Source: Chrysochromulina parva
Taxonomy: Eukaryota > Haptophyta > Prymnesiales > Chrysochromulinaceae
Direction: 5' to 3'
NCBI GenBank assembly: GCA_002887195.1
Contig: PJAB01001379.1
Span: 1-14,900, forward strand
Length of the DNA: 14,900 nucleotides
Shown here piece after piece: positions 1 to 14,900 of this stretch. The notes under the pieces were generated by a model. That model made no database searches. It was not told the DNA's origin and saw nothing but the letters and a program-made list of their open reading frames with translations. The position numbers and the translations under genes were made by a program. Positions within the stretch are counted from its first letter, which is position 1; every line of letters starts with the position of its first letter.

Positions 1-3000
1 AGTGCGAACGAGCCGCGGCTGAGCATCGCCCAGATGGGCGGCGTGGAGCGCTTCGTCACGATGCTCGCGCATGGCTCGATCGAAGCACAGGAACGGATCT
101 TGCGGCTCTGAACCCTAACCTTAACCCGAACCCTAACCTTAACCCTTAACCCCAACCCTAACCCTAACCCTTAACCCTGACCCTTAACCCCAACCCTTAA
201 CCCCAACCCTTAACCCGAACAGGAATGGATCTTGTGGCTCTTTTGGCAGCTCGTCGACGCTTCGAGCCGACTCGCCGTCGCCAGGGCTCGCTGCGCCGGC
301 CACGTGGTCGCCGCATGCCTCTCCGGCGGCCTGCGCCCCGCCGCGCTCGAGCACGCGGCAGCGGTGCTGAACGGGCTCGCGACGCCGATGGCCGCCCTCG
401 ATCCCGCCGAGCTCGCGATGAACAAGCAGGACATCGTGGTGGCCGGCGGCATCCCGCAGCTCGCGGCGCTGCTGCGCGAGGGCAACGGGCGCGCCCAGCG
501 GCACGCGGCCCTCGTACTCGGGCAGCTGACAGAGAGAGACGATCCCACGTTGGCGTACGAGGCCCAGATGCGTATCGCCCAAGCGGGCGCCATCGACGCG
601 CTCGTGGACTGGCTGCTGCCGGCCCGAGTGGTGATGCGGGCGGAGCGGGCGCAGCTGGCGACGGCGGTGGCGCCCGTGGGGGCGGCGCCGCAGCCTCTGC
701 CCGCCACGTCCGCGGAGGTGGGCGGCGCGACGGCGGCCAGGGCGGGCGATGGAAGACTCGGCGACGCGGCGGTTGCATCTGCGCCGCCGTCTGCACGCTT
801 GGTCGTCGGTGATTCGACCTCGCTACCCACGGCACCTCCCATTGCCCCTTCACCTCCGCCCAAGGCTACGAAATCGGCCTCCAAAGTCGAGTCATCCTCT
901 ACGTCCGCCCTCTCGACGGTGGTTACATCCGCCCTCTCGACGGGCCCACCCGAGCTAGCCGCGCGTGCCCTTTCGCAGATCGCCCGGCGTAATAAGGACA
1001 CGCAAGCGACCATCGCGGAGGAAGGGGCGATCGCGCCTCTGCTCGCCATGCTACGCCTCGAGGCCGGTACCGAAACGGCACGAGGTGGCGGCGGCGGGCG
1101 GCGCAGTGCGCGGGGCGCGGCACCGGACTTGCATGCCGTCGACCATGCAGTCGAGACGCGCCGATGGGCGGCGGCGGCGATCGCCGCGCTCGCGGACGAC
1201 AACATCTCGACTCGCATCGAGATTGCCGAGGAGGGCGGGATCGCGCCGCTCGTCTCCCTCATCCTAGCCGAGCGCGAGTCGGCCTCGTTTTCTCGGCAGG
1301 CGCCCCTCGTCGTTGAGAGCGCGGTGCACGCGCTGTACCATCTCGCTTCGGACGAGGACAACAAGCTCGCGATCGCTCGTCTCGGGGGCATTCCGCCCCT
1401 CGTACGCCTCATCGAGCTCGATGACGAAGGCACCGACGAGACGATGGAATGGGCCGCGGCCGCACTCGAGACCCTCGCTCGAGGCTCGCACGAGAACCAA
1501 CTCGCTCTCTCTCGACTGGAGGCCATCCGACCGCTCACACTCCTCTGCGGCGCCGAGCAGCCGCGCACGCGCGCGCACGCGGCGGGCGCACTGCTGTGCA
1601 TCGCGACGCCCAAGGAGAACCTCACCAACGTAGTCGTGCCGCTCGTCGAGCTCCTTGAGCTGCGCAACCCGGCGGCACTGGCCATCGCGGCGCACCTCCT
1701 CGCGGCGCTCGCGGCGCGCGGCGTAGCAGGGCGCACGGCCGTCGCCGACGCGGGAGGCATTCCCAGCCTCGTTCGGATGCTCGGGGATGGCACCAACCCC
1801 GCGCAGCTCCAGATCGACGCGGCCGCATGCCTGTTTGACCTCGCGCGCACGCCCAACGGCAAATCATCCCTCGCGGCCGCGGGCGGGGTGTCGCCGCTCG
1901 TTCAAATGCTCAGCTGCGCGAGCGTCGACGCGCAGACGCACGCCGCGGGCGCGCTCTGGTTGCTCGCCACCGTCCCCGCGTGCCAGCCGACACTCGTCAA
2001 CGCGGGCAGCATCGAGCCGCTCGTGGCGCTGCTCTCGAGCCCATGCGTGGCCGCCGCGACCCATGCCGCCGATGCCCTCGGGCAGCTCGGCTCCGGCTCG
2101 GACAACAAGGCGGCCATCATCAAGGCGGGGAGCGTGCCGCCGCTCGTGGCGCTGCTGAGTGCGTCGGCACCTCCCGAGGCACGCGAGAGTGCGGCGGCCG
2201 TCCTTGCAGAGCTCTCCCGCGGCAAGAAGGACGGCGCGCGGGAAGCCATCGCCAAGGCGGGCGGCGTCGAGCTCCTTGTGCAGCTCCTGAGTACCGACTG
2301 CGAGCCCATCTTGGTCAAGCATGCGGCGATGGCGCTGTGGGGACTGACCTCGGAGCCGGCCCTCCATGGCCTCGTGGCACGCGCGGGCGCGATGCCGCTG
2401 CTGGTCGCACTTCTCCAGTCGGACACGCACAAGGGCGAGGTGCACGGGCATGCCGCTGCGACCCTTTCCAACGTGGCGAGCGACCCGACCTGCCGGCATC
2501 TGCTCACGACGCAGACGAACGCGATGGGCGTGCTCATGGGCCTCACACAGGGCGGGAGTGCGTGGCTCATGTCCACGGCGACGGCGATCCTCAAGCAGCT
2601 GGATCCGAAGAAGAGCGCCAAGGGCGAGGGCGGTGGCGAGGACGATGGCGCGGCGGCGGCGGCGGCGTTGCAAAGGAAGGCGCAACGGGAAAAGGAGCGT
2701 CGCGATGCTGTACCCCAATACGGACCTCGCCTTGCATGCCAGTGCTCACCACGTGCTCGCCCTCCCCTCTTCCCACAGGAGCGTCGCGATGCTGCCGCGT
2801 TGAACCATCGTATGAAGATGAAGATGGAGGAGGAGGCTGCGAAATCGGCCAAGGGTACTGGTGGCGGTGGCGTGCCAAGAGGACCGCCGCTCTCAGCAAA
2901 AGGACCGCCCCTCTCAGCAAAAGGACCGCCGCTCTCAGCGAAAGAGCCGCCCCTATCAGCAAAAGGACCGCCGCTCTCAGCAAAAGAACCGCCCCTATCA

Positions 3001-4320
3001 GCAAAGGAACCGCCCCTATCAGCAAAGCAACCGCCGCTCTCAGCAAAGGAGCCGCCCCTATCAGCAAAAGGACCGCCGCTCTCAGCAAAAGAACTGCCGC
3101 TCTCAGCAAAAGAACCGCCCCTATCAGCAAAGCAACCGCCAAAACCCAACCCCACCGTGCTGGCCGCGCCGTTATCGACGCCCGTCGCCACGATCGCGAC
3201 GACCGCCACGACCGCCACGGCAGCTGTGCCTTCCCCCTCGGCGAGGCTGCTCGCTAAGCCACTGGCCGCGATGGCGCTTTCGAAGCTGACAAGAGCCCCG
3301 CCTCTTGCCGTGGCTGCCGTCGTCCAACGATTGGATGCGGCTCCCCATTCGGACCGGCATGCCCCCCCCCCCTCGGACCGGCATGCGGCGCCCCCCTCGG
3401 ACCGGCATGCCCCCCCCTCGGACCGGCATGCCCCCCCCCTCTCGGACCGGCATGGGGAGCGAGCCACCGACCGCTCGGGAGTATCCACGGATCGACGTCA
3501 GGGGAGTACTCCCCTCAGCCAGGACTCCCCCAGGGGAGTCTCAACGGATCGGAGTACCAGCAGCAGTGTGGTGATGGACCCTCGACGAGGATCCCACAGT
3601 GTGGCCACGTCACCTGCCACGTCACCTCGACGAGGATCCCACAGAAAAGGGGGCGGCATGTCAACGACCGTCTTGGGGAGTCTCGTGACGACCAAGGCTG
3701 CCGTCTTGGCGTCTGCCACTGTTCTGACCGCCCCTCCTGCTGACGCCGCCGTTGCTGCGCCATCGGGCGATGGCGCTGCCGATGAAGAACCACAAGGAAG
3801 CAGCAGCAGGACCAGCAGCAAAGCGCCTCGGCTGCGTCTCAAGCTGCCGGCACACGCCCCGCCGCCACCGGCTGCTCCGAGCTCGCCTGTGAATTCACAG
3901 CATTATAATTCACCTGCTGCTCCGAGCCAGCGCAGCGCGAGCTCGCCAGCCCCCTCTGTGGGAAATAGCTCGCCAGCCCCCTCTGTGGGAAATAGCTCGC
4001 CAGCTCCCTCGCAGCGAAATAGCTCGCCAGCCACCTCTGCGGGAAATAGCTCGCAACTCGCCTCCCAACGCAGCAGCAGCAGCAGCAGCAGCAGCAGCGC
4101 AGTTGGCCCGTCATCGCAGCGAGGAGCCCTCGCGACGATCAGGGACGCTCACGAGGACGCTGAGGAGGGCGCTACCACTACCGCCGCGCCCAAGGGCGGC
4201 GCCACCAGCGCGGCCGCCACTGGGACCGAGATGGCAAGCCGGGACTCTGCCCCATCGTATCGAACGAAGCCTTCAAGGACACGCGTGGCGGGGGGCGCAG
4301 CCCTACGCGGCGCTGCGTAA
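1..4320 (+). CDS. ARM-repeat protein with long Pro/Ser-rich repetitive tail (5' end outside window)
   Basis: Exons are inferred as 1-90, 223-2694 and 2779-4320, giving 1367 residues in the window and ending at TAA 4318-4320. The start lies upstream. Residues 1 to about 826 form roughly a dozen armadillo repeats with the recurring pattern [IV]xxAGG[IV]xPLVxLL followed by AAxALxxLA; an ARM superhelix normally binds other proteins. A low-complexity linker (about 600-950) and a Gly/Arg insert (about 1080-1125) interrupt the repeats. A Lys/Arg/Glu-rich helix follows around 2640-2860. The tail then holds twelve PPLSAK heptads, SDRHAPP repeats, SSPAPSVGN nonads and a poly-Ser run, and is probably disordered. 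ARM assignment is secure from the repeat pattern; the cellular role is unknown. The first splice has no usable GT donor, so if it does not occur the 5' end is broken by TGA at 109-111. Confidence 0.85.
91..222 (+). other. Probable intron made of telomere-like repeats, GA-AG, flanked by direct repeats
   Basis: The ARM reading frame runs from base 1, meets TGA at 109-111, then resumes in the same frame at 223. Bases 87-109 and 219-241 are near-identical (21 of 23, both differences C to T). Removing 91-222 (132 nt) keeps frame and joins CAG to GAA, restoring one copy of the duplicated segment. The interior is degenerate CCCTAA/CCCTTAA repeat. No GT dinucleotide exists between base 57 and the acceptor, so a canonical donor at this point is impossible and GA-AG is inferred. 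The alternatives are a GT-AG intron from 55 that would delete part of an ARM repeat, or a disrupted gene. Confidence 0.6.
110..219. repeat. Interstitial telomere-like repeat tract
   Basis: About 110 bp of degenerate units on the + strand: CCCTAA, CCTTAA, CCCTTAA, CCCCAA, CCCGAA and one CCCTGA. The complement reads TTAGGG/TTAAGGG-like. The tract is too short and too degenerate for a chromosome end, and coding sequence continues on both sides, so it is internal. It fills most of the probable intron at 91-222. Confidence 0.85.
2695..2778 (+). mobile_element. Introner-like intron 1 (ARM gene)
   Basis: Bases 2693-2710 recur exactly at 2777-2794, the second copy lying directly after the acceptor TCCCACAG. 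Between them is a core containing GCCAGTGCTCACCACG and a pyrimidine-rich run, shared with the introns at 6982-7065 and 7273-7341. Removal of 2695-2778 (84 nt, GA-AG) leaves one copy of the duplicate. A canonical alternative is GT at 2710 to AG at 2778 (69 nt), which would leave a tandem ERRDA-ERRDA in the protein. Both keep frame and the segment has no stop, so retention is also possible on sequence alone. Confidence 0.65.
2881..3132 (+). repeat. 21-bp minisatellite encoding twelve PPLSAK heptads
   Basis: Twelve consecutive 21-nt units encode (G/E/Q)PPLSAK, with one ELPLSAK variant, and a thirteenth unit breaks off as QPPK. The first residue of each heptad alternates Gly, Glu and Gln, and the CTC/CTA choice varies, so units have diverged slightly. 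Each unit has Ser and Lys in a proline-rich context, suitable for kinase sites or extended-peptide binding, but this is only inference. Confidence 0.95.
3349..3452 (+). repeat. SDRHAPP repeat with variable C-homopolymer runs
   Basis: Five copies of TCGGACCGGCATG are separated by C runs of 11, 6, 8 and 9 bases. The encoded repeats are SDRHA followed by two or three prolines, and all stay in frame. The copy-to-copy change in run length is what replication slippage produces. Confidence 0.9.
3498..3540. repeat. Pair of hairpin-forming inverted repeats in the coding tail
   Basis: AGGGGAGTACTCCCCT (3500-3515) is a perfect 16-bp palindrome. GACTCCCC (3523-3530) and GGGGAGTC (3533-3540) form a second inverted repeat with a 2-base spacer. 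The arms of the two are nearly interchangeable, so cross-pairing is also possible. The segment is translated as part of the Ser/Arg-rich tail. Confidence 0.8.
3581..3644 (+). repeat. 45-bp offset direct repeat encoding PRRGSH twice
   Basis: The 19-mer CTCGACGAGGATCCCACAG occurs at 3581-3599 and 3626-3644, an in-frame offset of 15 codons. It encodes two PRRGSH motifs around a TSPATSP spacer. PRRGS resembles a basophilic kinase site, which is inference only. Confidence 0.85.
3940..4098 (+). repeat. 27-bp SSPAPSVGN minisatellite followed by an AGC microsatellite
   Basis: Four 27-nt units starting AGCTCGCCAGC lie at 3940-4047, with a fifth diverged unit after them. They encode SSPAPSVGN-type nonads. 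At 4071-4098 a CAG/AGC run encodes a poly-serine stretch. Both are in frame in the C-terminal tail of the ARM protein. Confidence 0.9.
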
Positions 4321-5327
4321 ACCGAGCGGCGCGGCGTGATTTTTAGACGGGTGGAATTACAATTAGATTAGATCGGTGTAGTTTGTTTGACCCAACGAAA
4401 TGCTCAGCTAAACTGACACGACAGCAGTCCACCGCGACTCGACTCCGCCGCCGCGGAGACGTAGGCGCCTTGGCCGCATCGCGATCCCGCCCTGGCTCCG
4501 CCATTTTCCACCTTCCTCGGTCGCGCACAAAGGTCGCACATCGCACCCGAGATCCTCGCCTGAAGCTACTACGTAGTTACTCAGCGCATCACCCGTGTAG
4601 GAGGCACTTTCACAGCCCTTTCCTGATTTGATGTCTCATTCACAGCTCTTTCACAGCCCTTTCACGGGCAATTCTCGCGAAGTAAAAAAATGCGATGCAG
4701 GATTGTGCTTTCGGCCAATCCCTCGCGCGCGGGCGGATCGCCCACTGCCCTCGTCGAGCCCGATGGCCTGCTTCCCTTTGACACGCGTTCCGCGGTATGC
4801 GATGCCCAACTCATCGCTCCATCCGGCCTTCGCTGCGCTCCCGTCCGCTCACCCTGCGCGCGGGGTTGACGACGAGCTGAGATGGGGGCCGATTTCCATG
4901 CGCGTCTGCACGACATGCTTCGCGCCTTCGGGGCCTCGGGAAGTCACTGGGACGCTGCCCTCTTGTACTGCGGGGATCGCTTCCTACTCGCGCGCCCTGT
5001 GCCCTCGTCGAGCCCGATGGCCTGCTTCGCACACGTTCGGGGCCTTGGGAGCCACAGCTGCTTCGCACGCCCACACCACGCTGCTCGGGGCCTCGGGAGC
5101 CAGGCGTTGCGGCAGCGCGCCGTGGTCGCTTCGAGCGTCCTCGACGCGCCCTCGCGCCACGGCTGCCGCGGCCACCCGAGCTCCGAGGGGCCTGTGGGCG
5201 AGCTGCACATGCGCACCGCGACGGAGTGCGCACCGCCGCCTCTTGAGCGTCACCGCGGAGCCGCGCGTGCCCCCTCGAATCCGCAGGTGTCCGAGCGGGC
5301 GAAGGCCTGATAAGCGCGGTGGACGCG
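4321..5327. other. Intergenic region between ARM gene and ankyrin-kinase gene
   Basis: No supported gene is seen. An AT-richer stretch follows the ARM stop (about 4337-4400) and may hold its 3' end signal. ACTACGTAGT at about 4567-4576 is a perfect palindrome. TTTCACAGCCCTTTC occurs at 4608-4622 and 4648-4662. A 29-bp segment beginning TGCCCTCGTCGAGCCC occurs at 4746-4774 and exactly again at 5000-5028, and GGGGCCTCGGGA/GGGGCCTTGGGA motifs recur between 4929 and 5099. Open frames here lack family resemblance and look like by-products of high GC. Confidence 0.6.
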
Positions 5328-8300
5328 ATGAGCGACTCGATGGGCAAGGCCGTGTACGAGGCCGCAAGCTTCGGCAACGAGGCGGAGCTCAGGCGGCTGA
5401 TCGGCCTTAGAGGGAGCGTCAACTGGCGCGATGTGCGCCGCCGCATGTGCCTCGCGTGGGCGCCCGCGTCGACGCCGCCTCTGTTGGTTTAGTCGTCCTC
5501 GCCGCCGAGGCAGCGCCCGCCCGACACGGCGCCGTTTCCCCACAGCCCAGGCGGCGCTGGCCTTTTGCCGCCGCCCCGCCGACCCGCCGAATGGCGCGCG
5601 CCGCACCCCCGCGTGCTCGCCCATTCGTCTCACCCCTTTGGCCCTTGAGGATGGCTCGTGTGTGCGTCCAGGAATGCGGATGGACAGCTCTGATGAAGGC
5701 CTCATGGATAGGGCACGAATGGTGCGTCCGACTCCTCATCGAGTCCGGGGCGACCATCAACGACACGGAGGTAAGTCTGGAGCGCCCTCTCCCAAGCACA
5801 CGCCATGGGTCAGCTTCCCTGTAGTCATTTTGTTCGTGTCCTCCCTTATGTCTTCAGAACTGCTACGGACGCTCAGCTTTGCATTGCGCGGCAATCAACG
5901 GCCGCCTCGCGATCGCCAAGCGACTTCTCGAAGGCGGCGCCGATGCGACCCTTCGAGACAAGTGGAGCAAGACGGCCATCGACTGGGCACGGGAGTATGG
6001 CTACAGCGAGCTCGTGGCCCTGCTGAGCGAGCCTCGGTACGCGAACGGAGACCGAACCGAATGCGAACCGAATGCTGATTTGAATGCGAACCGAATGCGA
6101 AATCGATTGCGAACCGAATGAAAACCGAAAGGCAGGGAGGCGCCGTCTTGGGCGCGCACGCGGACCACGGTTTATCTGCCGCTCGGCGAGCGAATGGCGG
6201 CGAGCTGCCATGGGATGCGGCCGAGAGGTCGCAACGGACGCCCTCTTGGGCAACACAGCGCCTCGCCATTACACGCCCTTCACATTCGGCGACGGGTGCA
6301 GAACGACCAAATCCTAAGCGCCGTGATGGGCACCACGTGGTCTCCACTGAGTCTCCTACTGCCTTGTGATTTTGTGGTCGACCGTTCTCAAGCGCCAAGC
6401 TGTGCGTGCCCTCGCGCGTCCACAGGGGCGAGGCGCAGCGGCGCGAGGTGGAGCGGCGCGAGGCAGAGCAGCGCGAGGCAGAGCAGCGCGAGGCGCAGCG
6501 GCGCGAGGCCGAGCAGCGTGAGGCAGAGCGGCGCGATGCAGAGCGGCGCGAGGCGGAGCAGCGACGCGAAGCAGCGGCTCGACAGCAACGTGAGGCGGCC
6601 GAGGAGCATCGGCGACGCGAAGACGCGAAGACGGCTCTAGATGCGGCAATGAACAGCACCGATGAGGCGGCGCTTCAGGCTGCACTCCATGCGGGTCAAG
6701 AGTTGGCCCTTCCGGTCGAGCTTCTGGAGCGAGGCGTGCTCCGCCTGTCCGAGCTGCAGGAGGAGAGGAGGGAGCAGCTGGAGCAGCTGCGACGCGAAGC
6801 GGCGGCTCGACAGCAACGTGAGGCGGCCGACAAGGCGGCGGCCGACAAGGCGGCGGCCGACAAGGCCATGGCACTGGCTGAAGTAGAGGCTGCTCGGTCT
6901 GCGGCGGCCGCGGCAGCCGCAGCGGCGGCCGCCTCTCGGGAAGGACTGTCCAACGCGCTGAGAGCAGGCCCCCCGGCCGAGGTCACGATAGCATCTCTCG
7001 CATCTCTCGCCATGGGCACCCGTGCATGCAAGTGCTCACGACGCCGCCCTCACCTCTCCCCACAGGTCACGATAGCATATCTCGCGGCATGCACGGACAA
7101 CTTTGCGTGGGCAACGTGTGGGTTGGGCGAGGGCGCCTTCGGGAGGGTCTACCGCGGTGTGGATGCAGAGAGTGGCGTGCGCTTCGCCGTCAAGAGGCTG
7201 CGCGACGATATCGTCGACGGGCGCGCGGATGCCGCGGTCCTTGCTGCCATGCATCGCGCGGCCGCGCAAGAGGTGAAGGGGCTCTCTGAATTCCGCGCTG
7301 CAGGCAAGTGCTCACCACGGCGCCCCCGCCTCTCCCCACAGGTGAAGGTGCTCTCTGAATTCCGCCACCCGCACATCGTGCGGCTGCTCGCCTTTGCGTT
7401 CGAGGGTGCGCAGCGCTGCCTCGTGTACGAGCTGCTCCCAGGTGGCTCGCTCGACGCCGCGATCCGGGACGATCGGCGCGCGCGCGAGCTCACGTGGCGC
7501 ACGCGCGTCCGCATCGCGGCATGCGTCGCCAAGGCGCTCCACTACCTTCACCGCGGCGGAGGCGGGTTCAAGTGCTTCCACCGAGACGTCAAGGCAGCAA
7601 ACATCTGCCTGACTGCCGACCTCTCTCCGCAGCTCATAGACTGCGGCCTGGCCAAGTATGTGCCCGCGGAGAGTGGCCCACAAGTCTCGTCAGGCGGCCG
7701 CTTCGGGACCCCCGGCTACAAGTGCCCCCGCTACGAGGAGAGCGGCGGATATGATGACAAGTCCGAAGCGTACTCGTACGGCATCGTCCTCCTCGAGCTG
7801 ATCACGGGAGAAGTGCAGAATCACCGGCGCAGCTTGTATACCGTCTTCATCGAGGACGAAGACGAAGAGCTCGAGGCGGCCTTCGATGCACGCGCTGGCG
7901 AGTGGCCGGACCCAGTCAAGACCGAGCTCGCCAGCGTGGCCCGCGAGTGCCTGGACAAGTACAAGAAGCGGTGCGGCCTTGGGGCTGTGCTGCAGCGACT
8001 CGTCCGCCTCGAGCTCGCACACTGCACTCCATTGGTCGAGGAGGTGCACCTCGCTGAGGCGCGCGCCGAGCTCGATCGCCTTCGCGGCGCGGCACAAGTC
8101 GCCACCGCCGCTTCGGCGTTGCAGCAGCGCACGTGTCAGGTGTGCTACTGTGAGTGCGATCTGGCTGCGGGCGTCGAGTGCTCGCCACCGGCGGGCGCGG
8201 CGCCGCATTTCCTGTGCAACGGCTGCCTCGCGCAGTATGTCGGAGAGCAAGTCGCCAACCACACCGACGCCAACCTGCGTCGCTTCGAGCAGCGCGGCGG

Positions 8301-8931
8301 TGTTCGCTGCTCTCACTTCATTGCGCCTCGTGCAGGCCAGCCGGTGGTCGCGGAGTCGTGCCGCGCGCCCGTCTACACTGATGCCGCTCTTGCCGCCCAC
8401 CTGCCGGAGACGACCTTTGCCCTCTACTTTCAAGCGAAGGCGAAGGTCGCCGAGCAGAGAATACACGTGGAGGCAGCGCGCGGCTTTGCCGCGGAGCGGG
8501 CGGCTCTCGAGGCGCGCATCGCCACGCTCGACCTGGATGAGCGTGCTCGCCAGGTGCGCCACCATATCGTCGAGCGCATCCTCAACCCCGCATGCCCGCG
8601 CTGTGGGCAGGCTTTCGTTGACTTTGATGGCTGCTTTGCCCTCTCATGCAGCCGCGTCGGCTGCTCGCTCCCCGCATGCGGCTTCTGCGCCTACTGCCTG
8701 CACGACGCCAACGGCGATGCGCACGCCCACGTCGCCGAATGTCGGCACAACATCGCCCCCGGCCGCGGTGTCTGGGCATCGCTTGAGATCTTCAAGGAGG
8801 CGCAGCGCCGGCGCTGCACGCGCATGATTCGCGAGTACCTTGCGACTCTCGATGCGGCCTCTCGCGCACGCGCCCTTGGCGACTGCGCGCAAGATCTGCG
8901 CGATCTCGGCATCGCGCCCAACGAGATCTGA
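5328..8931 (+). CDS. Ankyrin - charged helix - TKL-like protein kinase - RBR-like zinc-finger fusion protein
   Basis: Exons inferred: 5328-5432, 5672-5770, 5858-6036, 6426-6981, 7066-7272, 7342-8931; 911 residues. ATG 5328 is the first after an in-frame TGA at 5244. Residues 1-128 are ankyrin repeats (GWTALMKAS, GRSALHCAA). Residues 129-310 are charged pentads and Ala-rich helix. Residues 314 to about 575 are a plant IRAK/RLK-like kinase: TDNF lead-in, GEGAFGRV loop, K356, E382, HRD 462-464, N469, D482. Odd positions are DCG for DFG, CPR for APE (R512) and E524 for the helix-F Asp. Residues 647-849 resemble an RBR: a weak RING1 (C647, C650, H671, C674, C677) and a RING2 with C800, C803, C813, C818, C823, C828, C831, spaced as in parkin. 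No IBR is evident. The 6036/6426 junction is the least certain: kinase-RBR might be a separate gene. Confidence 0.8.
5433..5671 (+). other. Intron 1 of ankyrin-kinase gene (GT-AG, 239 nt)
   Basis: The donor is GTGCGC after GAT (5430-5432) and the acceptor GTCCAG at 5671. It is phase 0 and joins SVNWRD to ECGWTALMKAS, giving a proper ankyrin repeat start. No flanking duplication is seen, unlike the later introns of this gene. Confidence 0.7.
5771..5857 (+). other. Intron 2 of ankyrin-kinase gene (GT-AG, 87 nt)
   Basis: The donor is the canonical GAG|GTAAGT and the acceptor TGTCTTCAG|AAC. It is phase 0 and joins GATINDTE to NCYGRSALHCAA, restoring the normal ankyrin helix-loop register. It has no flanking direct repeat and looks like an ordinary older intron. 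Confidence 0.8.
6037..6425 (+). other. Probable intron 3 linking ankyrin to coiled-coil/kinase exons (GT-AG, 389 nt)
   Basis: The donor is CG|GTACGC at 6037 and the acceptor GTCCACAG at 6425. The codon split by the donor (two bases) is completed by exactly one base at the acceptor, so LLSEP continues in frame into GEAQRREVE. The intron carries four copies of CGAACCGAATG (6053-6063, 6064-6074, 6087-6097, 6110-6120). If it is not spliced, the ankyrin frame ends at TGA 6119-6121. Confidence 0.6.
6439..6558 (+). repeat. 15-bp repeats encoding charged pentads (REAEQ/RREAE)
   Basis: Eight 15-nt units encode RREVE, RREAE, QREAE, QREAQ, RREAE, QREAE, RRDAE and RREAE. A separate 41-bp segment beginning CGACGCGAAGC occurs at 6562-6602 and 6790-6830 with one mismatch, and a 15-bp GCGGCCGACAAG-type unit repeats near 6826-6867. 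The five-residue period suggests a charged, possibly single alpha-helix spacer, not a classic heptad coiled coil. Confidence 0.85.
6982..7065 (+). mobile_element. Introner-like intron 2 (ankyrin-kinase gene, GT-AG, 84 nt)
   Basis: A 22-bp segment starting AGGTCACGATAGCAT is present at 6980-7001 and 7064-7085 with one mismatch. The first copy supplies the GT donor and the second begins the next exon after CCCCACAG. The interior holds GCATGCAAGTGCTCACGACG plus a pyrimidine-rich run. It is phase 0. Removal gives PPAEVTIAYLAACTDNF, the usual lead-in to this kinase type, whereas retention would duplicate VTIAxLA and insert 28 residues before the kinase. Confidence 0.8.
7273..7341 (+). mobile_element. 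Introner-like intron 3 (inside kinase domain, GT-AG, 69 nt)
   Basis: A 26-bp segment starting AGGTGAAGG occurs at 7271-7296 and 7340-7365 with one mismatch. The first copy supplies the GTGAAG donor and the second copy is the start of the next exon after CCCCACAG. The core GGCAAGTGCTCACCACGG and pyrimidine run match the other introner-like introns. It is phase 0, directly after the codon of the helix-C glutamate (E382). Removal gives the consensus-like AQEVKVLSEFRHPHIV; retention would duplicate EVKxLSEFR within the catalytic core. Confidence 0.85.
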
Positions 8932-9053
8932 AGAGTGATCTGACGAGATCTGAAGAGTGATCTGACGAGATCTGACGAGTGACAGCATGACAGGTGGCGG
9001 GCGGCCCGATCTGAAGTGAGATCTGAAGAGTGACAGCATGACAGGTGGCGGGC
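8921..9053. repeat. Tandem repeats overlapping the kinase-gene stop codon
   Basis: The 22-mer beginning ACGAGATCTGAAGAGTG occurs exactly at 8921-8942 and 8943-8964, and a part copy follows. The first copy contains the last codons and the TGA at 8929-8931. A 26-bp segment GAGTGACAGCATGACAGG... occurs exactly at 8977-9002 and 9028-9053. The array forms the proximal 3' flank. Confidence 0.9.
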
Positions 9054-9545
9054 ACCACGATCGATCCTGATGCGCGTCATTCACACGTCCCCACGGAGTC
9101 CTTCACACGATCGATGCCTGATCGTGCATGGTCTGCCCTTGCCCCTTGCGATGTGGGACGTGGGATGGACGGGGTCTGATGGGACTTGGGATAGACGGGG
9201 TGATGGGACGTGGGGCGTCGCGGGTCGCAGCGCCACGTGTGTGAGTGCCGCGCCCTGACCGAGGCGGCGAGGCTCGAGGGGCTAGCTTCGACACCGTTAC
9301 GTGATGAGAGCGAGCGGAGCCGTCGTGTGTGAGTAACTGCGCGCAAGACCCGCGCGATCTGTCAATGTGCGCCGTCCGGTCGGTGCAAGGGCATCGTTGA
9401 TGTGCCGTGTTTGCTCGCGGCTGGGTCTGCAGTCGCAAAACTGTGCGACGGGTGGTCCCATGTCAAGTTGCGAATATCTCGAAATATCCAACTGAACGCC
9501 AACGCACTAATTCATAGAGGAGCCTCGTGGAAACATGTGAATAAG
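9054..9545. other. Intergenic region before glycosyltransferase-like gene
   Basis: No gene is supported. Near-tandem units GGGACGTGGGATGGACGG / GGGACTTGGGATAGACGG lie at 9155-9180 and 9181-9204, with a partial third at 9205. CACGATCGAT occurs near 9056 and 9107. Bases 9336-9360 match 8882-8906 in the last coding part of the kinase gene at 23 of 25 positions, a small duplicated gene-end fragment. The frame of the next gene is already open from about 9402 but its first ATG is 9546. Confidence 0.6.
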
Positions 9546-10706
9546 ATGAACATCGGAAGATCGACGTCGCCGTGTTTGTTTCACGTCGAACAGGTCTTGA
9601 AGTCCTTCAAAGGTTCAATGACGACACCGACGCAGACACCGCAGTCCGCCCCATGCTCAAGACTTAACGTGGCTCGGCATGGAGGATTGCTTGGACTCAT
9701 GTTGACATCGAGCTCAGAATGGGTAATCCGCCCATGGCTGTACCGGCACATAGCAATCTTTGACCGTCTCGCCATCTGGGATGGAAGTAAAGCGGGATCG
9801 CCTGCGGCTGCTTGGACTGCTGCGCAGTGCAAGCTGTATGCGAACTGTGTATATGCAAACGAGGCCGATGTATTCAACTGGCGAATCCAGGGCTGGAAGA
9901 CAGACCAGACGATACGGGCTGCAGCAACGCAAGTACTGCTTTGTGGTGCTAAGTCCCAAGTGTTGGAGGGGCGATGGATCTACATTGCGCACCCGGACGA
10001 ATTTTTGGTGCAGGATCTGAGGATACTCGTCTCCCACGTGGAACGTCTCAGCCCATTAGCAAATGCCATCGAATTCAAGATGCTCTACGCCCTTCCTAGC
10101 TCCGGCGAGCGCTCAGGAATTCGTGAGTTCCAAGCCGCATCGAACGGCTACCAGAGCTTTGAGCCGATCGTATCATTGGCATCTTGCGACGCCGGATACA
10201 TCTGGCACGAGGCCCGGCTCTTCCGCTGGGAGGCCGGCGTGGAATGGGGCCAATCTCGAAGCAAGACCGGCATCATTCCCGAAAAGGGCCCAAGTAATGG
10301 ATGGAAGTACTGGCCGACTGCTGCACATTTTGATCGCACAACACGACACAGTCTTGCCCCACACATCGTGCACTTCAAGGTGCATGACTTTGCTCCCGGC
10401 GCATTCAAGGTGGAGAAATCAAAAAATAAAGGCAGGCCATGGATTTCCTTTACCAGGAGCGGTCTACACACTGGCATGGGCACTCATAGGACTCAAAAGT
10501 TCATTATTGATTGGAATCAGTCGGCGGAGGACCAGATATTTGGGTACTATAATCGAACTGGACATCGAGCTACACCAGTGGCAACTGAGCTGCAAGCTCG
10601 CTGCAATGCCACGGGGCTCGAGCCACGATGCAGCGTCGAATGGCAGCCACAGGCACGGTTCTCTCCTAGTTCACCGACGAAGAAAGTTGCTGGGGACACA
10701 TTTTAG
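9546..10706 (+). CDS. Glycosyltransferase family 2/92-like protein (divergent)
   Basis: A 386-residue protein from ATG 9546 to TAG 10704-10706; the frame is open upstream to at least 9402 without an ATG, so an upstream exon is possible. The pattern EWVIRPWLYRHIAIFDRLAIWDGS matches, loosely, the start of GT-A enzymes of the GT2_4/DUF23 type (acidic residue, Wxx(Y/H)H, FD, D..S). Further on, RWIYIAHPDEFLVQDLR aligns with the usual DxDEF metal/nucleotide-sugar motif, but the first Asp is His (HPDEF). No signal peptide or transmembrane anchor is obvious from ATG 9546, which is odd for a Golgi enzyme. Codon use is visibly less GC-rich than the neighbouring genes. Family assignment rests on motif reading only. 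Confidence 0.6.
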   Translation: MNIGRSTSPCLFHVEQVLKSFKGSMTTPTQTPQSAPCSRLNVARHGGLLGLMLTSSSEWVIRPWLYRHIAIFDRLAIWDGSKAGSPAAAWTAAQCKLYANCVYANEADVFNWRIQGWKTDQTIRAAATQVLLCGAKSQVLEGRWIYIAHPDEFLVQDLRILVSHVERLSPLANAIEFKMLYALPSSGERSGIREFQAASNGYQSFEPIVSLASCDAGYIWHEARLFRWEAGVEWGQSRSKTGIIPEKGPSNGWKYWPTAAHFDRTTRHSLAPHIVHFKVHDFAPGAFKVEKSKNKGRPWISFTRSGLHTGMGTHRTQKFIIDWNQSAEDQIFGYYNRTGHRATPVATELQARCNATGLEPRCSVEWQPQARFSPSSPTKKVAGDTF

Positions 10707-10994
10707 ACCCCGGTCACGTTCTTCAGTTTTGCTCACCGGGACGGTGTGGATGATGTTGTGCACGAAGCGCGCGCGCGCGCGCTCCCGCGTACGGCGATCG
10801 AACGTTTCGGCCCCGCCGCCAGCAGTCCACCCCCCCTCCACCCACTCACCTGTCTCCTCGTCGCCCGCCTCCGGAAACCGACGTTACAAGTGAACCGTGC
10901 ACGTCACGCCATCCTTCGTGCTTCGATCCAGAAGCCCCCGGGCATATCATAACATAAGCGTATTTTTTGTACGAGTAGACAATATGTTTCGAGA
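10707..10994. other. Convergent intergenic spacer
   Basis: This 288-bp spacer lies between the 3' ends of the rightward glycosyltransferase-like gene and the leftward SAM gene. It contains a GC-alternating run near 10766-10781, a C-rich stretch near 10830-10840 and an AT-richer segment at about 10945-10985 that may serve 3' end formation for the minus-strand gene. No gene is seen. Confidence 0.6.
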
Positions 10995-12281
10995 CTATCT
11001 CTTCGGCTTCTTCGGCGCCACCGCCGCCGGCGCCGCCGCTGGTGCGAACGCCGCAAGCGCCGCTCTGAGCTCCGCGGCGGCGGCGGCGGCCGCAGCGGCC
11101 GCTGCCTCGGCAATTTCCCTCTGGCGTTCGCGCTCGCGTGCGTGCTCGCGGCTGGCAGAGATGGCGCGCAGCCGCTGTACGCGCTTCGCTTCCTGCGAGC
11201 TCTCCACATCGAGATCGTGAATCACAGTCTCCGCGTGCGAGAGCTCCATGTCGCATGAGTACCAGTCATGCTCGGCGGTATGCACAAGCTCCTCGAGGTC
11301 CGTGCTCATGCGCACGAAGCTGCTGCTGAGCTCGGGCGGCGAGATCTCATGGATGCTAAAGTCGGACGGCACGAGCAGATTGACCATCTCGTGGCTGAAC
11401 GCGCGCTCCGGGGACCAGGTTTCCCCTTTGCCCTTGCGCAACGAGTTCTCGATGTTCATCGAGGCGCGCAGCATCTCCATCTTCGCCCTTTCGAGGCGCA
11501 GCAGCTCCTCCGTCTCGTGCAGCACGTCCTCGGCCTCGGCGCACGCGCGCATCTGAGCCTCGAGCCGTCGACGGCACGCGTGACGGATCCGCTCCGCTTG
11601 CTCGGCCTCGCGCTGCCGATGCACATTGTCGTTGAGATCGATCTGCGCGAGGGCGTCGAGCCCGACGTCCTCGGCCTGCTGCCAGAGCTGCGTGAGCAGG
11701 CGGCGCGTGCGCAGCGGGATGACGGGCGTCGTGGCGAGCACCTTTGCCATGCACTCGCCGAGCACCTGCAGCCGTCGCCGCCTCGCCTCGAGCTGCCGCG
11801 CCAGCTTCTGCTCGGAGAGTGCGCCGCTCGGGACCTCGCGCCGTGCGCGCGCTCGCAGCTCGTGCAGCTGGCGCAGGATGCGCTTGCGCTGCGGCAGATC
11901 GACGACGCCGAGCACGCGCAGGTCGAGCTCGTCTAGCGTGGTGAGCTCTACGCCGCTGATGCCCTGCGCCCGCAGCGCCTCCACCTGCTCCGCGTCAAAG
12001 CGCACCGTCGTGCGCAGCCACTCGGACACGTCGTCCACCGACCAGCTCGCGAGATCCACGGATGCCCCGGTTTGCGGGGCCTTGGTGGCATCCTGCAGAA
12101 CCTTCTCGTCGAGGGCCTGCTGTGCGAGCCGGCGGGCCACCCAATTGCCGACCGCCGCGCTGTCGTCGGAGCGTCCGCCTGCACTTGACTCGAGAAGCGC
12201 TGGCGACGATGGCACGCCGTGCAGCGCAGACGTCGAGGCCATCGCCTCCGCTTTGTCGAGGGCTGCACGGAGTGCGCGCAT
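10995..12281 (-). CDS. SAM-domain coiled-coil protein
   Basis: A 428-residue intronless frame on the minus strand. The first ATG is at 12281-12279; a TGA lies upstream in frame at 12332-12330. Residues about 79-143 form a sterile alpha motif domain: WSVDDVSEWL, a central EALRAQGISGVEL, and LGVVDLPQRKRILRQL, matching the five-helix SAM pattern. SAM domains mediate protein or occasionally RNA binding. Residues about 150-290 and 330-400 are highly charged with heptad-like spacing, likely coiled coil. The C-terminus is an Ala-rich run followed by PKKPKR, a possible nuclear localisation signal. The specific function is unknown. It lies 224 bp downstream of the JmjC gene on the same strand. Confidence 0.8.
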   Translation of the reverse strand: MRALRAALDKAEAMASTSALHGVPSSPALLESSAGGRSDDSAAVGNWVARRLAQQALDEKVLQDATKAPQTGASVDLASWSVDDVSEWLRTTVRFDAEQVEALRAQGISGVELTTLDELDLRVLGVVDLPQRKRILRQLHELRARARREVPSGALSEQKLARQLEARRRRLQVLGECMAKVLATTPVIPLRTRRLLTQLWQQAEDVGLDALAQIDLNDNVHRQREAEQAERIRHACRRRLEAQMRACAEAEDVLHETEELLRLERAKMEMLRASMNIENSLRKGKGETWSPERAFSHEMVNLLVPSDFSIHEISPPELSSSFVRMSTDLEELVHTAEHDWYSCDMELSHAETVIHDLDVESSQEAKRVQRLRAISASREHARERERQREIAEAAAAAAAAAAAELRAALAAFAPAAAPAAVAPKKPKR

Positions 12282-12505
12282 TGAGAGTGGCCGGTCACGC
12301 CATAGCAACCGTTTCGGAAATTCGCGTCGTCATGAGCATTCACTTGAATCGCTGCCAAATGGCGGTGCAATCGCCCGATCGCAATTCGCCGGCTTGCGCG
12401 CTGCGTACCGCCAGAACGAAAAGAGCGTTGAGACTGAGCACACAACTGTATCAAGAACAAGCCAAGGACCAGCAAGATTTCCCCTGGCTGGCTCTGCGCG
12501 GGTTC

Positions 12506-13603
12506 TCACTCAGGCTTCACGATACCGAGCATGCATGCGGGCGCGGGCTCCTCCGCGGTCGGGTCCCACGGCACGAGGACCGAGAGCGCGGACGACTCAT
12601 GGCCGGTCTCCACGTGGTGCCAGTGGTAAGGCGGCGTGTACAGCACATCGCCCGGCCGCACCTCCGCGTGCCACGCGGCCGCCTCCGCCGCGGACATGAT
12701 AGCCTCCGACATGGTAGTCTCCGCGCCCACGACGGCGCTCGCAAGTCCTCCCTCGCCCACGACGGCGCTCGCAAGTCCTCCCTCGCCCGCCTCCGCCGCG
12801 CCGAGCGCGCGCTGCCGCTTGGCGTCGCGCCACGCGTCGATCTGCTCGGAGAGCTGTGCCGCCTGCTCAATGTCTTGCAGGAGGGCCTCACCGAGCTCCA
12901 TTCCGTGGGAGGCGTCGCGCGGGAAGAGATCTCGAAAGGTCTCCGGCGGGTAGTAGGTGAAGTGCTTCGTGCCCAGGACGCCGACGAGGAAGCCGTGGCA
13001 CAGGTCGTAGTGAAGCGGCGTGACGCACCCAGTACTCCCGAGCCACACGCCACACTTGGCCACGTTGAAGCTGTGCGCGCCGGGCGCGCCGCCCACGAGC
13101 AACTCGAGCGCCTCGAGCGCCACCTCCTCGCGCAACCCATCCTCGAGCCGCGCGCGCGCGTAGAGCCGCTCACCGGGCGGCAGGCCGCCCGGCGTGAAGA
13201 GCCGCTCGGCCACGTGGCCAAACGGGCCCCAATAGTGCTCGCATGTCCGCTTCAGAAAGTGCCTGCCGTCGGGCGATCGAAGCACAAGGATGTCCTTGTC
13301 ATGCAGCGAGCTGAGATGCTCAACATTGCCCCAGCGGGCGAGCGCCGCCCAGTCGTTGGCGAGGCCGCGAAGAATCACTGGACGCTTGTGCTTGTAGCGC
13401 TCCACAAACTCGCTGTGCGTAAGGTCGGCCCTGACATCCACATGCTGCCGCTGCCCGATTGGTGGCAGCTGCGGCGGTGAAGCAGAGGCGGAGGCGGCGA
13501 AACACGCCTTGCAGCGCCCGAGTCCAGGGCCTTTCTTCCACTGAGCCGTGTTGTACCCGCTCTTCGGCTGGTCGCCGCCGCAGGCGAGGCACTGGTGGCC
13601 CAT
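12506..13603 (-). CDS. JmjC/cupin-8 family Fe(II)/2-oxoglutarate dioxygenase-like protein with N-terminal zinc motif
   Basis: 365 residues from ATG 13603 to TGA at 12508-12506, no intron needed. Residues 5-34 hold C5-x2-C8 ... C31-x2-C34 with a QWKKGPG stretch between, resembling a small zinc ribbon of the Stc1-like type (loose match). Residues about 58-350 match the cupin-8/JmjC family: KRPVILRG near the start, H198-x-D200 in TPLHYD as metal ligands, GTKHFTYYPP strand, and GDVLYTPPYHWHHV where H329 is the likely third ligand. Such enzymes hydroxylate protein or RNA side chains, or demethylate lysine; the substrate cannot be read from sequence. Residues 250-310 are a helical insert containing a tandem decapeptide from a 30-bp duplication. 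Confidence 0.85.
   Translation of the reverse strand: MGHQCLACGGDQPKSGYNTAQWKKGPGLGRCKACFAASASASPPQLPPIGQRQHVDVRADLTHSEFVERYKHKRPVILRGLANDWAALARWGNVEHLSSLHDKDILVLRSPDGRHFLKRTCEHYWGPFGHVAERLFTPGGLPPGERLYARARLEDGLREEVALEALELLVGGAPGAHSFNVAKCGVWLGSTGCVTPLHYDLCHGFLVGVLGTKHFTYYPPETFRDLFPRDASHGMELGEALLQDIEQAAQLSEQIDAWRDAKRQRALGAAEAGEGGLASAVVGEGGLASAVVGAETTMSEAIMSAAEAAAWHAEVRPGDVLYTPPYHWHHVETGHESSALSVLVPWDPTAEEPAPACMLGIVKPE
12728..12788. repeat. Tandem 30-bp duplication inside the JmjC-like gene
   Basis: Two exact head-to-tail copies of a 30-bp unit containing GACGGCGCTCGCAAGTCCTC encode the decapeptide GEGGLASAVV twice. It sits in the insert between the two metal-binding motifs, so it should not disturb the fold. 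Confidence 0.9.
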
Positions 13604-14328
13604 TGTTCGGACCGCCGAACCGGCCCTTCATGGCCACTTCACGACTTGCGTTATGCGCGTGAGTCGCCTCGAACGAAACTCCGTCCCAGCGTCTCGACTC
13701 CGGTGTGAATAGATTAGAGCAATGCATCATCCACCCGTGAACCGGGGCGCCGCCTGCGAACGAGCGCAGTGAGTTGTACACTGACCTAACTAACACACAT
13801 ATTGGGGGTCGGGAGGGTGGGCGCTTGCCATGGCTCTGCGCGCTCTTGTGCGCCAGACCACGAGAGCGAAGCCAAAGCTAGCTCTACAGTGGTGGCTAGA
13901 CGCGAGGCGCGCATACCCAAGGTTTTCCCCACAGCCCTCTTCACGCTGGACGAAGGTCGACTCCCTCGACTCCCCTGAACAATGGTCTGTTTGCTTTATA
14001 GCTCAAACTCTGCTCTGCGCGCCGAGCCCGTCGACGCGTGGCGCTCTCCCAAGGATTTCACACCGTCATACGCAGCATGACACACAGTTCATGTAATCTT
14101 GTAATGAAACCAGCCATGCAATCTCCGCGCGCCCCATATCGTCTTCGACATCGCACATGCACCCCCTCGGACACATCTCCATCGTAATGCACCCTCAGTG
14201 GTCCAAAGCCCCAGCCGCCGGTTGTCCGAAGCCCCAGCCGCCGGCTGCCGACGCGGTGACAGCACCTCGCTCCTCACGTGCAGCTGCGCCAAGGGCAGAT
14301 CGAAACGCTCCTGGCCCAGACGACGTAC
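13604..14328. other. Non-coding region upstream of the JmjC-like gene
   Basis: No gene is supported. The region should contain the promoter of the leftward JmjC-like gene and the 3' end of the partial gene further right. A 20-21 bp unit GTCC(A/G)AAGCCCCAGCCGCC is duplicated at 14201-14220 and 14224-14243. The stretch around 14080-14110 is comparatively AT-rich. No TATA box or other clear core-promoter element could be identified. Confidence 0.55.
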
Positions 14329-14900
14329 TCAGACGTGGTCTCTGACATTCTCGTTGTCATTGGAGAATTCCAGTAGCTTGTCGATCCTTGACAGAGAGAG
14401 CGTCAGCAAGGCCGACTCGCAGTCGTTGACTCCATACGAGAAGTGGAAGCTTGGCCCTTGGCGGAAGCCGCCCATCACAAACTGCACACCATCGCAGACG
14501 GCATGGCGCTCCGTCACAATTCGCGCGTCACCCTCGGCCCTGCTCTCCAAGGATGGCAAGCACAGCTCACGCGAGAAGCGCCGGATGCTCAGCTTCGTCT
14601 CGTCAATCGTGAGAAAGATCTGCCGGTAAGAGGAGCCGAACTCATACGGCCCCTTATCGTCAGCACGTGGCAGGTAATGGACGTGGCCCACGGCGAGATA
14701 CGCGTTGAGCTCCTCTACCCAGATTGGATGGATCGAGTTGTGCACATCGGCCGAGAAGCTCCTTGGCGCGCGCCGCTGCCTGAGCATGACGGGTTGTCGC
14801 ATGTTGTCCAACCTGTTGTCCATGTCTCCCGTCTCGAGCTCCTGTGGGCTGAGAGGCACCGACCAAAAGGTCGTCTTTGGCGCTATGTCCACCAGCTCAA
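14329..14900 (-). CDS. Unrecognised protein, C-terminal part (5' end beyond right edge)
   Basis: The frame is open from the right edge to TGA at 14331-14329, giving 189 complete codons. No ATG is needed here because the gene continues outside the window. The sequence is well ordered and protein-like: HNSIHPIWVEEL, YLAVGHVHYLP, FGSSYRQIFLTI, RFSRELCLPSL, then FHFSYGVNDCES near the end. The alternation of short beta-like strands with conserved-looking aromatic, His and Asp residues recalls beta-propeller carbohydrate-active enzymes, but this is an impression and no family is assigned. Codon use is less GC-extreme than in the ARM and kinase genes. Confidence 0.65.
   Translation of the reverse strand, partial: ELVDIAPKTTFWSVPLSPQELETGDMDNRLDNMRQPVMLRQRRAPRSFSADVHNSIHPIWVEELNAYLAVGHVHYLPRADDKGPYEFGSSYRQIFLTIDETKLSIRRFSRELCLPSLESRAEGDARIVTERHAVCDGVQFVMGGFRQGPSFHFSYGVNDCESALLTLSLSRIDKLLEFSNDNENVRDHV

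Follow-up and report, generated by a model that had tools for sequence, protein, structure and literature searches.

The question raised by this locus is whether three related, intron-like segments, each bracketed by direct duplications, are copies of a single element that has spread recently, and how such an element would have been copied. The segments lie in a 14,900-nt stretch of the haptophyte Chrysochromulina parva (contig PJAB01001379.1 of assembly GCA_002887195.1, positions 1 to 14,900 of the forward strand; hereafter the window), and an earlier note, made from the letters alone, had described them as introner-like introns in two unrelated genes. We confirmed the three segments and their 18-, 22- and 26-bp duplications (0-1 mismatch) at the positions claimed earlier, as well as the two unrelated hosts, with copy 1 residing in an armadillo-repeat gene and copies 2 and 3 in a protein-kinase gene. 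We consider it likely that these segments belong to a large and recently active introner family in which a copy typically comprises an element (E) between direct duplications (D), that insertion proceeds irrespective of splicing and that the copies arise by copying into a staggered break. The earlier proposal of a recent spread of one element is supported by: 1) a large family in the genome; 2) restoration of the reading frame upon removal of the copies; and 3) a relative of the kinase protein that is without copies 2 and 3.

A genome-wide family with a D-E-D layout

A search of the 45-Mb genome with a strict pattern comprising the core, a pyrimidine tract and CACAGG yielded 148 exact matches vs. 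none in the reversed control, while 1,915 matches vs. 7 in the reversed control were obtained with the 19-base core GCATGCAAGTGCTCACCAC when up to 3 mismatches were allowed; these totals are matches and not loci, one tandem array holding several of them. Near-identical copies were found at non-homologous positions, with unrelated flanks in the 14 sibling pairs compared. The suggestion that a genome-wide search with the core would retrieve introns with end duplications of 15-30 bp was largely borne out, the matches lying in unrelated exons with end duplications of ~8-52 bp, and a local duplication inside the window is ruled out by a family of this size. E consists of a core, GCATGCAAGTGCTCACCACGGCG, which is extended in the 5' direction to GTACGYTGATTGCCACTGATGACCTGCCT and/or in the 3' direction to a pyrimidine tract ending CCCCACAG. 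The 5' extension is present in about a tenth of matches; a search with the end of the 5' half plus the core gave 194 matches and one with the 5' half by itself gave 210, from which the 5' half seems seldom to move without the core.

The typical copy reads D-E-D, with splice sites recruited in more than one way. In mode A, E ends CCCCACAG and the exon that is duplicated, which starts GT, is the downstream one, the upstream copy of D serving as the donor; in mode B, E starts GTACGYTG and it is the upstream exon, ending AG, that is duplicated, the second copy of D serving as the acceptor. By eye, we also noticed a few copies with both splice sites apparently inside D (L051 and L078) as well as full-length copies with their own donor and acceptor and no evident D (L052 and L094). 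Automatic assignment of 148 arrays, 25 of which are tandem (e.g., L116 and L117), yielded 72 mode A, 30 mode B and 46 unassigned arrays, many of the last (judged by eye and uncounted) being mode B-like with a short or mismatched D, tandem, or full-length without D. The earlier description of D, as a duplication of the downstream exon starting AG|G, holds for only part of the family, since mode B duplicates the upstream exon and D in mode A starts GT, often without a preceding AG.

The length of D ranged from 10 to 47 bp in 57 single A copies, from 8 to 37 bp in 30 single B copies and from 12 to 52 bp in 42 arrays of the exact-core sample described below. As had been claimed, D exceeds the target duplications typical of DNA transposons, the figure cited for introners in the excerpts of Gozashti et al. 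2022 (PMC9860276) being 3-9 bp. The lengths of D and E are anticorrelated (rho -0.58 in A, -0.80 in B) around a median intron length near 78 nt, and selection on intron size thus probably trims the copies that we observe. In one copy (L163), the donor lies 3 bases within D, where splicing would add one codon; this is the sole such offset noticed.

Several variants and candidates were met along with the family. Mode A copies in L154, L171 and L126 end AATTAG in place of CCCCACAG, hinting at a subfamily with a different acceptor, while a subfamily in L022, L029 and L114, the genes of which seem different, has in common a 3' part reading CGCCCCC(A)TCCACTTCCCCACAG plus TCG directly before TGCATGCA. 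L167 holds a second partial core, inverted, ~50 bases downstream of the first. A known RNA was rejected, since neither the window nor five loci matched any Rfam family, as was a structured RNA, with fold z-scores of -1.5 to +0.8 in five copies. A viral vehicle was also rejected: an IMG/VR contig (L074) has the core only in its final 60 bases (4495-4554), reading CACAG|GTGAG there, beside open reading frames (ORFs) judged phage-like by eye, and this contig is most likely chimeric.

Splicing, in-frame inserts and recent gain

Evidence for splicing comes from a reading-frame test, for which we trained a codon-usage model on genes of the window itself and ran it on 108 classified arrays (67 A and 41 B), the other 40 of 148 arrays having neither an A nor a B call, or short flanks. 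After removal of the copy, the frames on the two sides agreed in 89 of 108 arrays (chance ~36), comprising 50/67 in mode A and 39/41 in mode B, where chance would give one third. Among the 67 copies with a length not divisible by three (non-3n), 52 were frame-consistent if removed vs. 3 if retained, with 12 fitting neither; 3n lengths were not strongly favored (27/67 A, 14/41 B). In addition, the Pkinase score for the window protein was 123.8 bits with copies 2 and 3 cut out vs. 109.2 bits with both left in. We regard the frame and Pkinase results as strong indirect evidence that copies are spliced, and many inserts seem to persist as introns because the duplicate provides the missing splice signal.

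Splicing does not appear to be a requirement for insertion. This was examined in an exact-core sample of 60 loci or arrays, covering 63 of the first 100 places among the 19-base core matches, in which D was clear in 42 arrays; of these, 27 had an exact GT..AG layout, 3 had only GC..AG and 12 had none. Nine of the 12 without a splice layout were 3n (binomial p = 0.004), vs. 8 of the 27 with GT..AG (Fisher p = 0.014). Since this sample left out places from earlier searches, which were mostly spliceable, 12/42 overstates the unspliceable share, and the test was therefore repeated with those loci added (22 arrays, one of which, in L026, coincides with L187 and was counted once), for 81 arrays. In this enlarged set, 59 arrays had D, comprising 39 with GT-AG (12 being 3n), 7 with only GC-AG (5 being 3n) and 13 with none (9 being 3n), and the 3n excess was again found (Fisher p = 0.022 for none vs. 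GT-AG; p = 0.006 for none plus GC vs. GT-AG). An exact core was required throughout, restricting these counts to young copies; the search requiring CACAGG over-represents mode A and the search needing part of the 5' half over-represents mode B.

Eight of the nine 3n unspliceable inserts can be read through without a stop in one or more frames, which is a weak indication in a GC-rich genome, and some inserts read as peptide (e.g., LHASAHHG or MQVLTTAP). The background of the splice-layout test is high, with exact GT/GC..AG in 16 of 38 arrays with D vs. 80 of 304 shifted pairings. As for orientation in the exact-core sample, spliceable copies with margins above 10 were 16 sense to 1 antisense and unspliceable ones 1 to 3 (Fisher p = 0.012), while the ratios for all cases were 21:6 and 5:7 (p = 0.06); a sense-orientation bias among spliceable copies is only suggestive. 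The simplest reading of the 3n excess among unspliceable D-flanked inserts, in what is a small sample, is that insertion is independent of splicing, with survivors being either spliceable or in frame. We had also considered a strictly splice-coupled insertion, in which one end of E meets the splice junction as it does in the classified copies, and dropped it because D-flanked arrays without a splice layout exist.

As to recent gain, one relative (P0064, from JGI) is identical to the window kinase protein in 685 of 697 residues past the divergent first ~60-70 residues (93.4% identity across all 758 aligned residues) and is, at the protein level, without exactly the residues encoded by window 6982-7065 and 7273-7341, which points to recent gain of these two copies; a second relative (P0063, 718/732 identical) has both of them. 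The first residues of P0064 match the translated end of an apparent ordinary intron near window 6425, suggesting that P0064 represents genomic and not spliced sequence. The alternative for P0064, which was compared as protein only, is a spliced transcript, in which case it would itself show precise splicing. P0065 (485/543 identical) starts with a copy-3-like tail of different length or frame, and copy 3 is missing at the protein level in the more distant homologues P0066, P0068 and P0070-P0075, among which P0072 and P0074 are annotated NCBI proteins, spliced in silico and therefore uninformative on introns. Copy 1 is kept in relatives P0183-P0185 (98-100%); in P0194 (57%) it is not recognizable, but the alignment there is poor. 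Empty paralogues within the same genome were found for 0 of 14 other sites. For copies 2 and 3, gain is likelier than loss. Near copy 2, a 28-residue coil stretch (window 6778-6861) is gone from both P0063 and P0064, and is a length polymorphism without the core.

The proposed copying step and its alternatives

In a D-E-D arrangement, excision between any two corresponding positions of the D copies would restore the exon, and exact restoration therefore does not need insertion to be coupled to splicing. Splicing would become possible where donor and acceptor fall at the same point, as in mode A, in mode B or with both sites within D. We surmise that inserts arise whether or not they are spliceable and survive when they can be spliced or stay in frame, as the small sample above suggests. 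With less certainty, we postulate that a short copy is joined into a widely staggered break by target-primed or microhomology-primed synthesis, for which the template could be RNA (target-primed) or DNA (microhomology-primed), both being compatible with this scheme. The junctions of mode B bear on this step: the variable junction has 2.15 bases in common with the element vs. 0.80 when permuted (p = 0.0002), and the inserted tract continues into D with bases common to siblings elsewhere (mean 4.93 vs. 1.29), 14 of 29 sharing at least 5 bases, with unrelated flanks in those 14. In L050 and L062, the common tract extends through GGCTTCCACAG inclusive. The long and variable D, truncation at either end and the carried donor flank together favor copying into a staggered break over cut-and-paste transposition or reverse splicing. 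A more specific proposal, which we put forward tentatively and lean slightly away from, is that a very short sequence (~20-25 nt minimum), perhaps in either orientation, is copied into staggered breaks without a transposase or a splicing-coupled step, carrying bits of donor flank and leaving a D of 8-52 bp, to become an intron if a splice signal lies at the edge of D or an in-frame protein insertion if 3n.

A number of observations do not sit well with copying into a staggered break followed by survival of spliceable or in-frame inserts. In the frame test, 17 of 67 mode A copies fail, the 12 of 67 non-3n copies mentioned above fit neither removal nor retention, and the assigned ends fall outside GT/GC/GA..AG in 8/67 A and 5/41 B copies, which look wrongly anchored. 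Eighteen of the 60 arrays in the exact-core sample are without a clear D, and junction sharing in mode A was not significant (p = 0.17). Thirteen cases underlie the in-frame result, at least L014 among them resembling a decayed mode A copy by eye, with the coding strand being unsure in several; furthermore, L156 is open in no frame. Finally, the five RVT_1 matches, at 29.7-34.2 bits barely above the cut-off of 29.6, identify no machinery.

Among the alternatives, retroposition similar to that of short interspersed nuclear elements, with an RNA copy inserted by target-primed reverse transcription using machinery of the long interspersed nuclear element type, is itself one version of the copying step proposed above. 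It would fit the variable D, the constant 3' end and truncated 5' end of mode A, and the five RVT_1 matches, whose open frames span 758-2709 aa, but mode B is truncated at its 3' end, which is unexpected from ordinary target priming, and no A-rich or repeat tail was noticed between E and D. In addition, two of the five reverse transcriptase ORFs, those with the long frame on the plus strand of the locus, were scanned and gave RVT_1 only, the long frames of the other three being on the minus strand; we deem this route unlikely, if possible. Unspliced in-frame coding insertions, which would not be introns at all, are improbable as an explanation, for even though all window copies are 3n and stop-free and some family members may be such insertions, the family lengths are not strongly 3n-biased and non-3n copies regain the frame on removal. 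Reverse splicing, in which intron RNA, once excised, enters new transcripts and the products undergo reverse transcription and recombination, has been proposed for fungal introner-like elements. The meeting of one end of E with the splice junction in modes A and B and the location of classified copies in coding exons would agree with it, but this coincidence is expected anyway, given that excision at any corresponding points of the two D copies restores the exon; moreover, reverse splicing predicts no duplication, in conflict with the clear D in 42 of 60 arrays, and 13 of 59 D-flanked insertions have no exact splice layout, leaving it a very slim chance.

The AGGT model, in which an exon stretch with AG|GT is doubled and the interval becomes an intron, with the shared core being incidental, had been mentioned in the earlier note as predicting the same geometry. 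It does account for the exon-restoring geometry, and the few copies that seem by eye to hold both splice sites in D (L051 and L078, as above) would suit it, but it leaves unexplained the common core between the duplicates and outside D; as the sole explanation it is refuted by the 1,915 matches, and we give it almost no weight. A non-autonomous DNA transposon, i.e., an introner similar to miniature inverted-repeat transposable elements with target duplications made by a transposase, we find highly improbable. In its favor, most non-fungal introner families show at least one DNA-transposon signature according to the excerpts of PMC9860276, and acceptor-only or donor-only families are known; against it, D is variable where a fixed short length is expected, truncation is possible at either end, and no terminal inverted repeat was noticed on reading the element ends by eye, no dedicated tool having been run.

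Comparison of the family with known systems, as described in excerpts of the papers cited, shows both likenesses and differences. The introners of Gozashti et al. 2022 (PMC9860276) are likewise near-identical introns in unrelated exons, are enriched in aquatic taxa and include families with one splice site of their own and the other from the target duplication, but D here is variable (~8-52 bp) and one family recruits splice sites on the donor side, on the acceptor side and on both. Family 5 of Chrysochromulina sp. in the same paper (from a TARA metagenome-assembled genome), also of a haptophyte and likened here by description and not by sequence, has its own donor and takes its acceptor from the duplication, as in mode B, and is without inverted repeats; its duplications, unlike ours, are 4 bp. 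The Daphnia neointrons attributed to repair of staggered breaks (PMC4202315) resemble our family in that the end of one neighboring exon recurs at the opposite end of the new intron, and they have polymorphic alleles, but their duplications are 4-12 bp and the passages at hand describe no single repeated source family. In Amoebophrya (PMC7789003), direct repeats also occur at intron borders and non-canonical ends are found, but the direct repeats measure 3-5 nt and hairpins are formed by inverted repeats 8-20 nt long, in contrast to the five copies folded here. Across 213 introns of various types, one survey gives repeats of 4-30 bp with a mean of 11.4 (PMC11782384, in part). Among the papers listed by our literature searches, judged by titles and abstract openings, we found no account of long variable duplications in an introner family.

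These findings bear on how introners without transposon signatures spread. The family offers useful material in several respects: 1) ~1,900 matches, with duplications whose length allows each insertion to be delimited exactly; 2) mirror-image recruitments of splice sites by one element; 3) a near-identical relative without two of the copies; and 4) copies without a splice layout, which may show insertions before selection for splicing. They also suggest that, through one kind of event, a gene may acquire an intron in some cases and extra protein sequence in others. If true, the more specific proposal made above, of a very short sequence copied into staggered breaks, would represent a repair-driven mass gain of introns, distinct from both DNA-transposon introners and reverse splicing.

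The window copies and their host genes

The coordinates of the three copies and their hosts are compiled below.

Table. Positions of the inserted segments, their duplications and cores, and the two host genes within the window
Feature	Position	Strand	Remarks
Copy 1, upstream copy of D	2693..2710	+	18 bp, identical to 2777-2794
Inserted segment 1	2695..2778	+	84 nt, 3n, stop-free, GA..AG, in the armadillo-repeat gene
Copy 1, family core	2741..2753	+	
Copy 1, downstream copy of D	2777..2794	+	
Copy 2, upstream copy of D	6980..7001	+	22 bp, 1 mismatch to 7064-7085; provides donor AG|GTCACG
Introner 2	6982..7065	+	84 nt, GT-AG, directly upstream of the kinase domain
Copy 2, family core	7031..7043	+	
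Copy 2, downstream copy of D	7064..7085	+	Exon start
Copy 3, upstream copy of D	7271..7296	+	26 bp, 1 mismatch to 7340-7365; provides donor AG|GTGAAG
Introner 3	7273..7341	+	69 nt, GT-AG, within the kinase domain directly ahead of VKVLSEFRHPHIV
Copy 3, family core	7307..7319	+	
Copy 3, downstream copy of D	7340..7365	+	Exon start
Host gene 1	232..4320	+	Armadillo-repeat protein ORF, open across copy 1
Host gene 2	6406..8931	+	Protein-kinase ORF, open across copies 2 and 3

The earlier designation of all three segments as introns stands for copies 2 and 3, with their GT-AG ends, but not as clearly for copy 1, which would be GA-AG and without a canonical donor. On reading the sequence of copy 1 by eye, no canonical splice pair restoring the exon exactly was found; this copy may be either a translated in-frame insertion or a non-canonical intron. 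Because every window copy is 3n with no in-frame stop, both host ORFs continue through them, and the window by itself is no proof of splicing. Within the window alone, the 13-base core is weak evidence, with 12 matches at up to 3 mismatches vs. 6.3 expected, 12 being reached in 7 of 200 shuffles. The core of copy 2 includes TGCTCAC, which we take to be a branch-point-like motif. In host gene 2, an ordinary intron probably ends near 6425.

Telomere-like repeats (CCCTAA / CCCTTAACCC) occur at window 113-222, inside the contig and directly before the armadillo-repeat ORF, possibly representing an interstitial or mis-joined telomere. The armadillo gene also contains about a dozen 21-nt repeats (PPLSAKE/G) at window 2876-3150, their number differing among the near-identical relatives P0183-P0185. 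The closest named relatives of the window kinase and armadillo proteins are haptophyte proteins of moderate identity (Prymnesium parvum, 59%; Chrysochromulina tobinii, 42%), and the relatives of the kinase also include one from a pelagophyte (Pelagomonas) at 49%.

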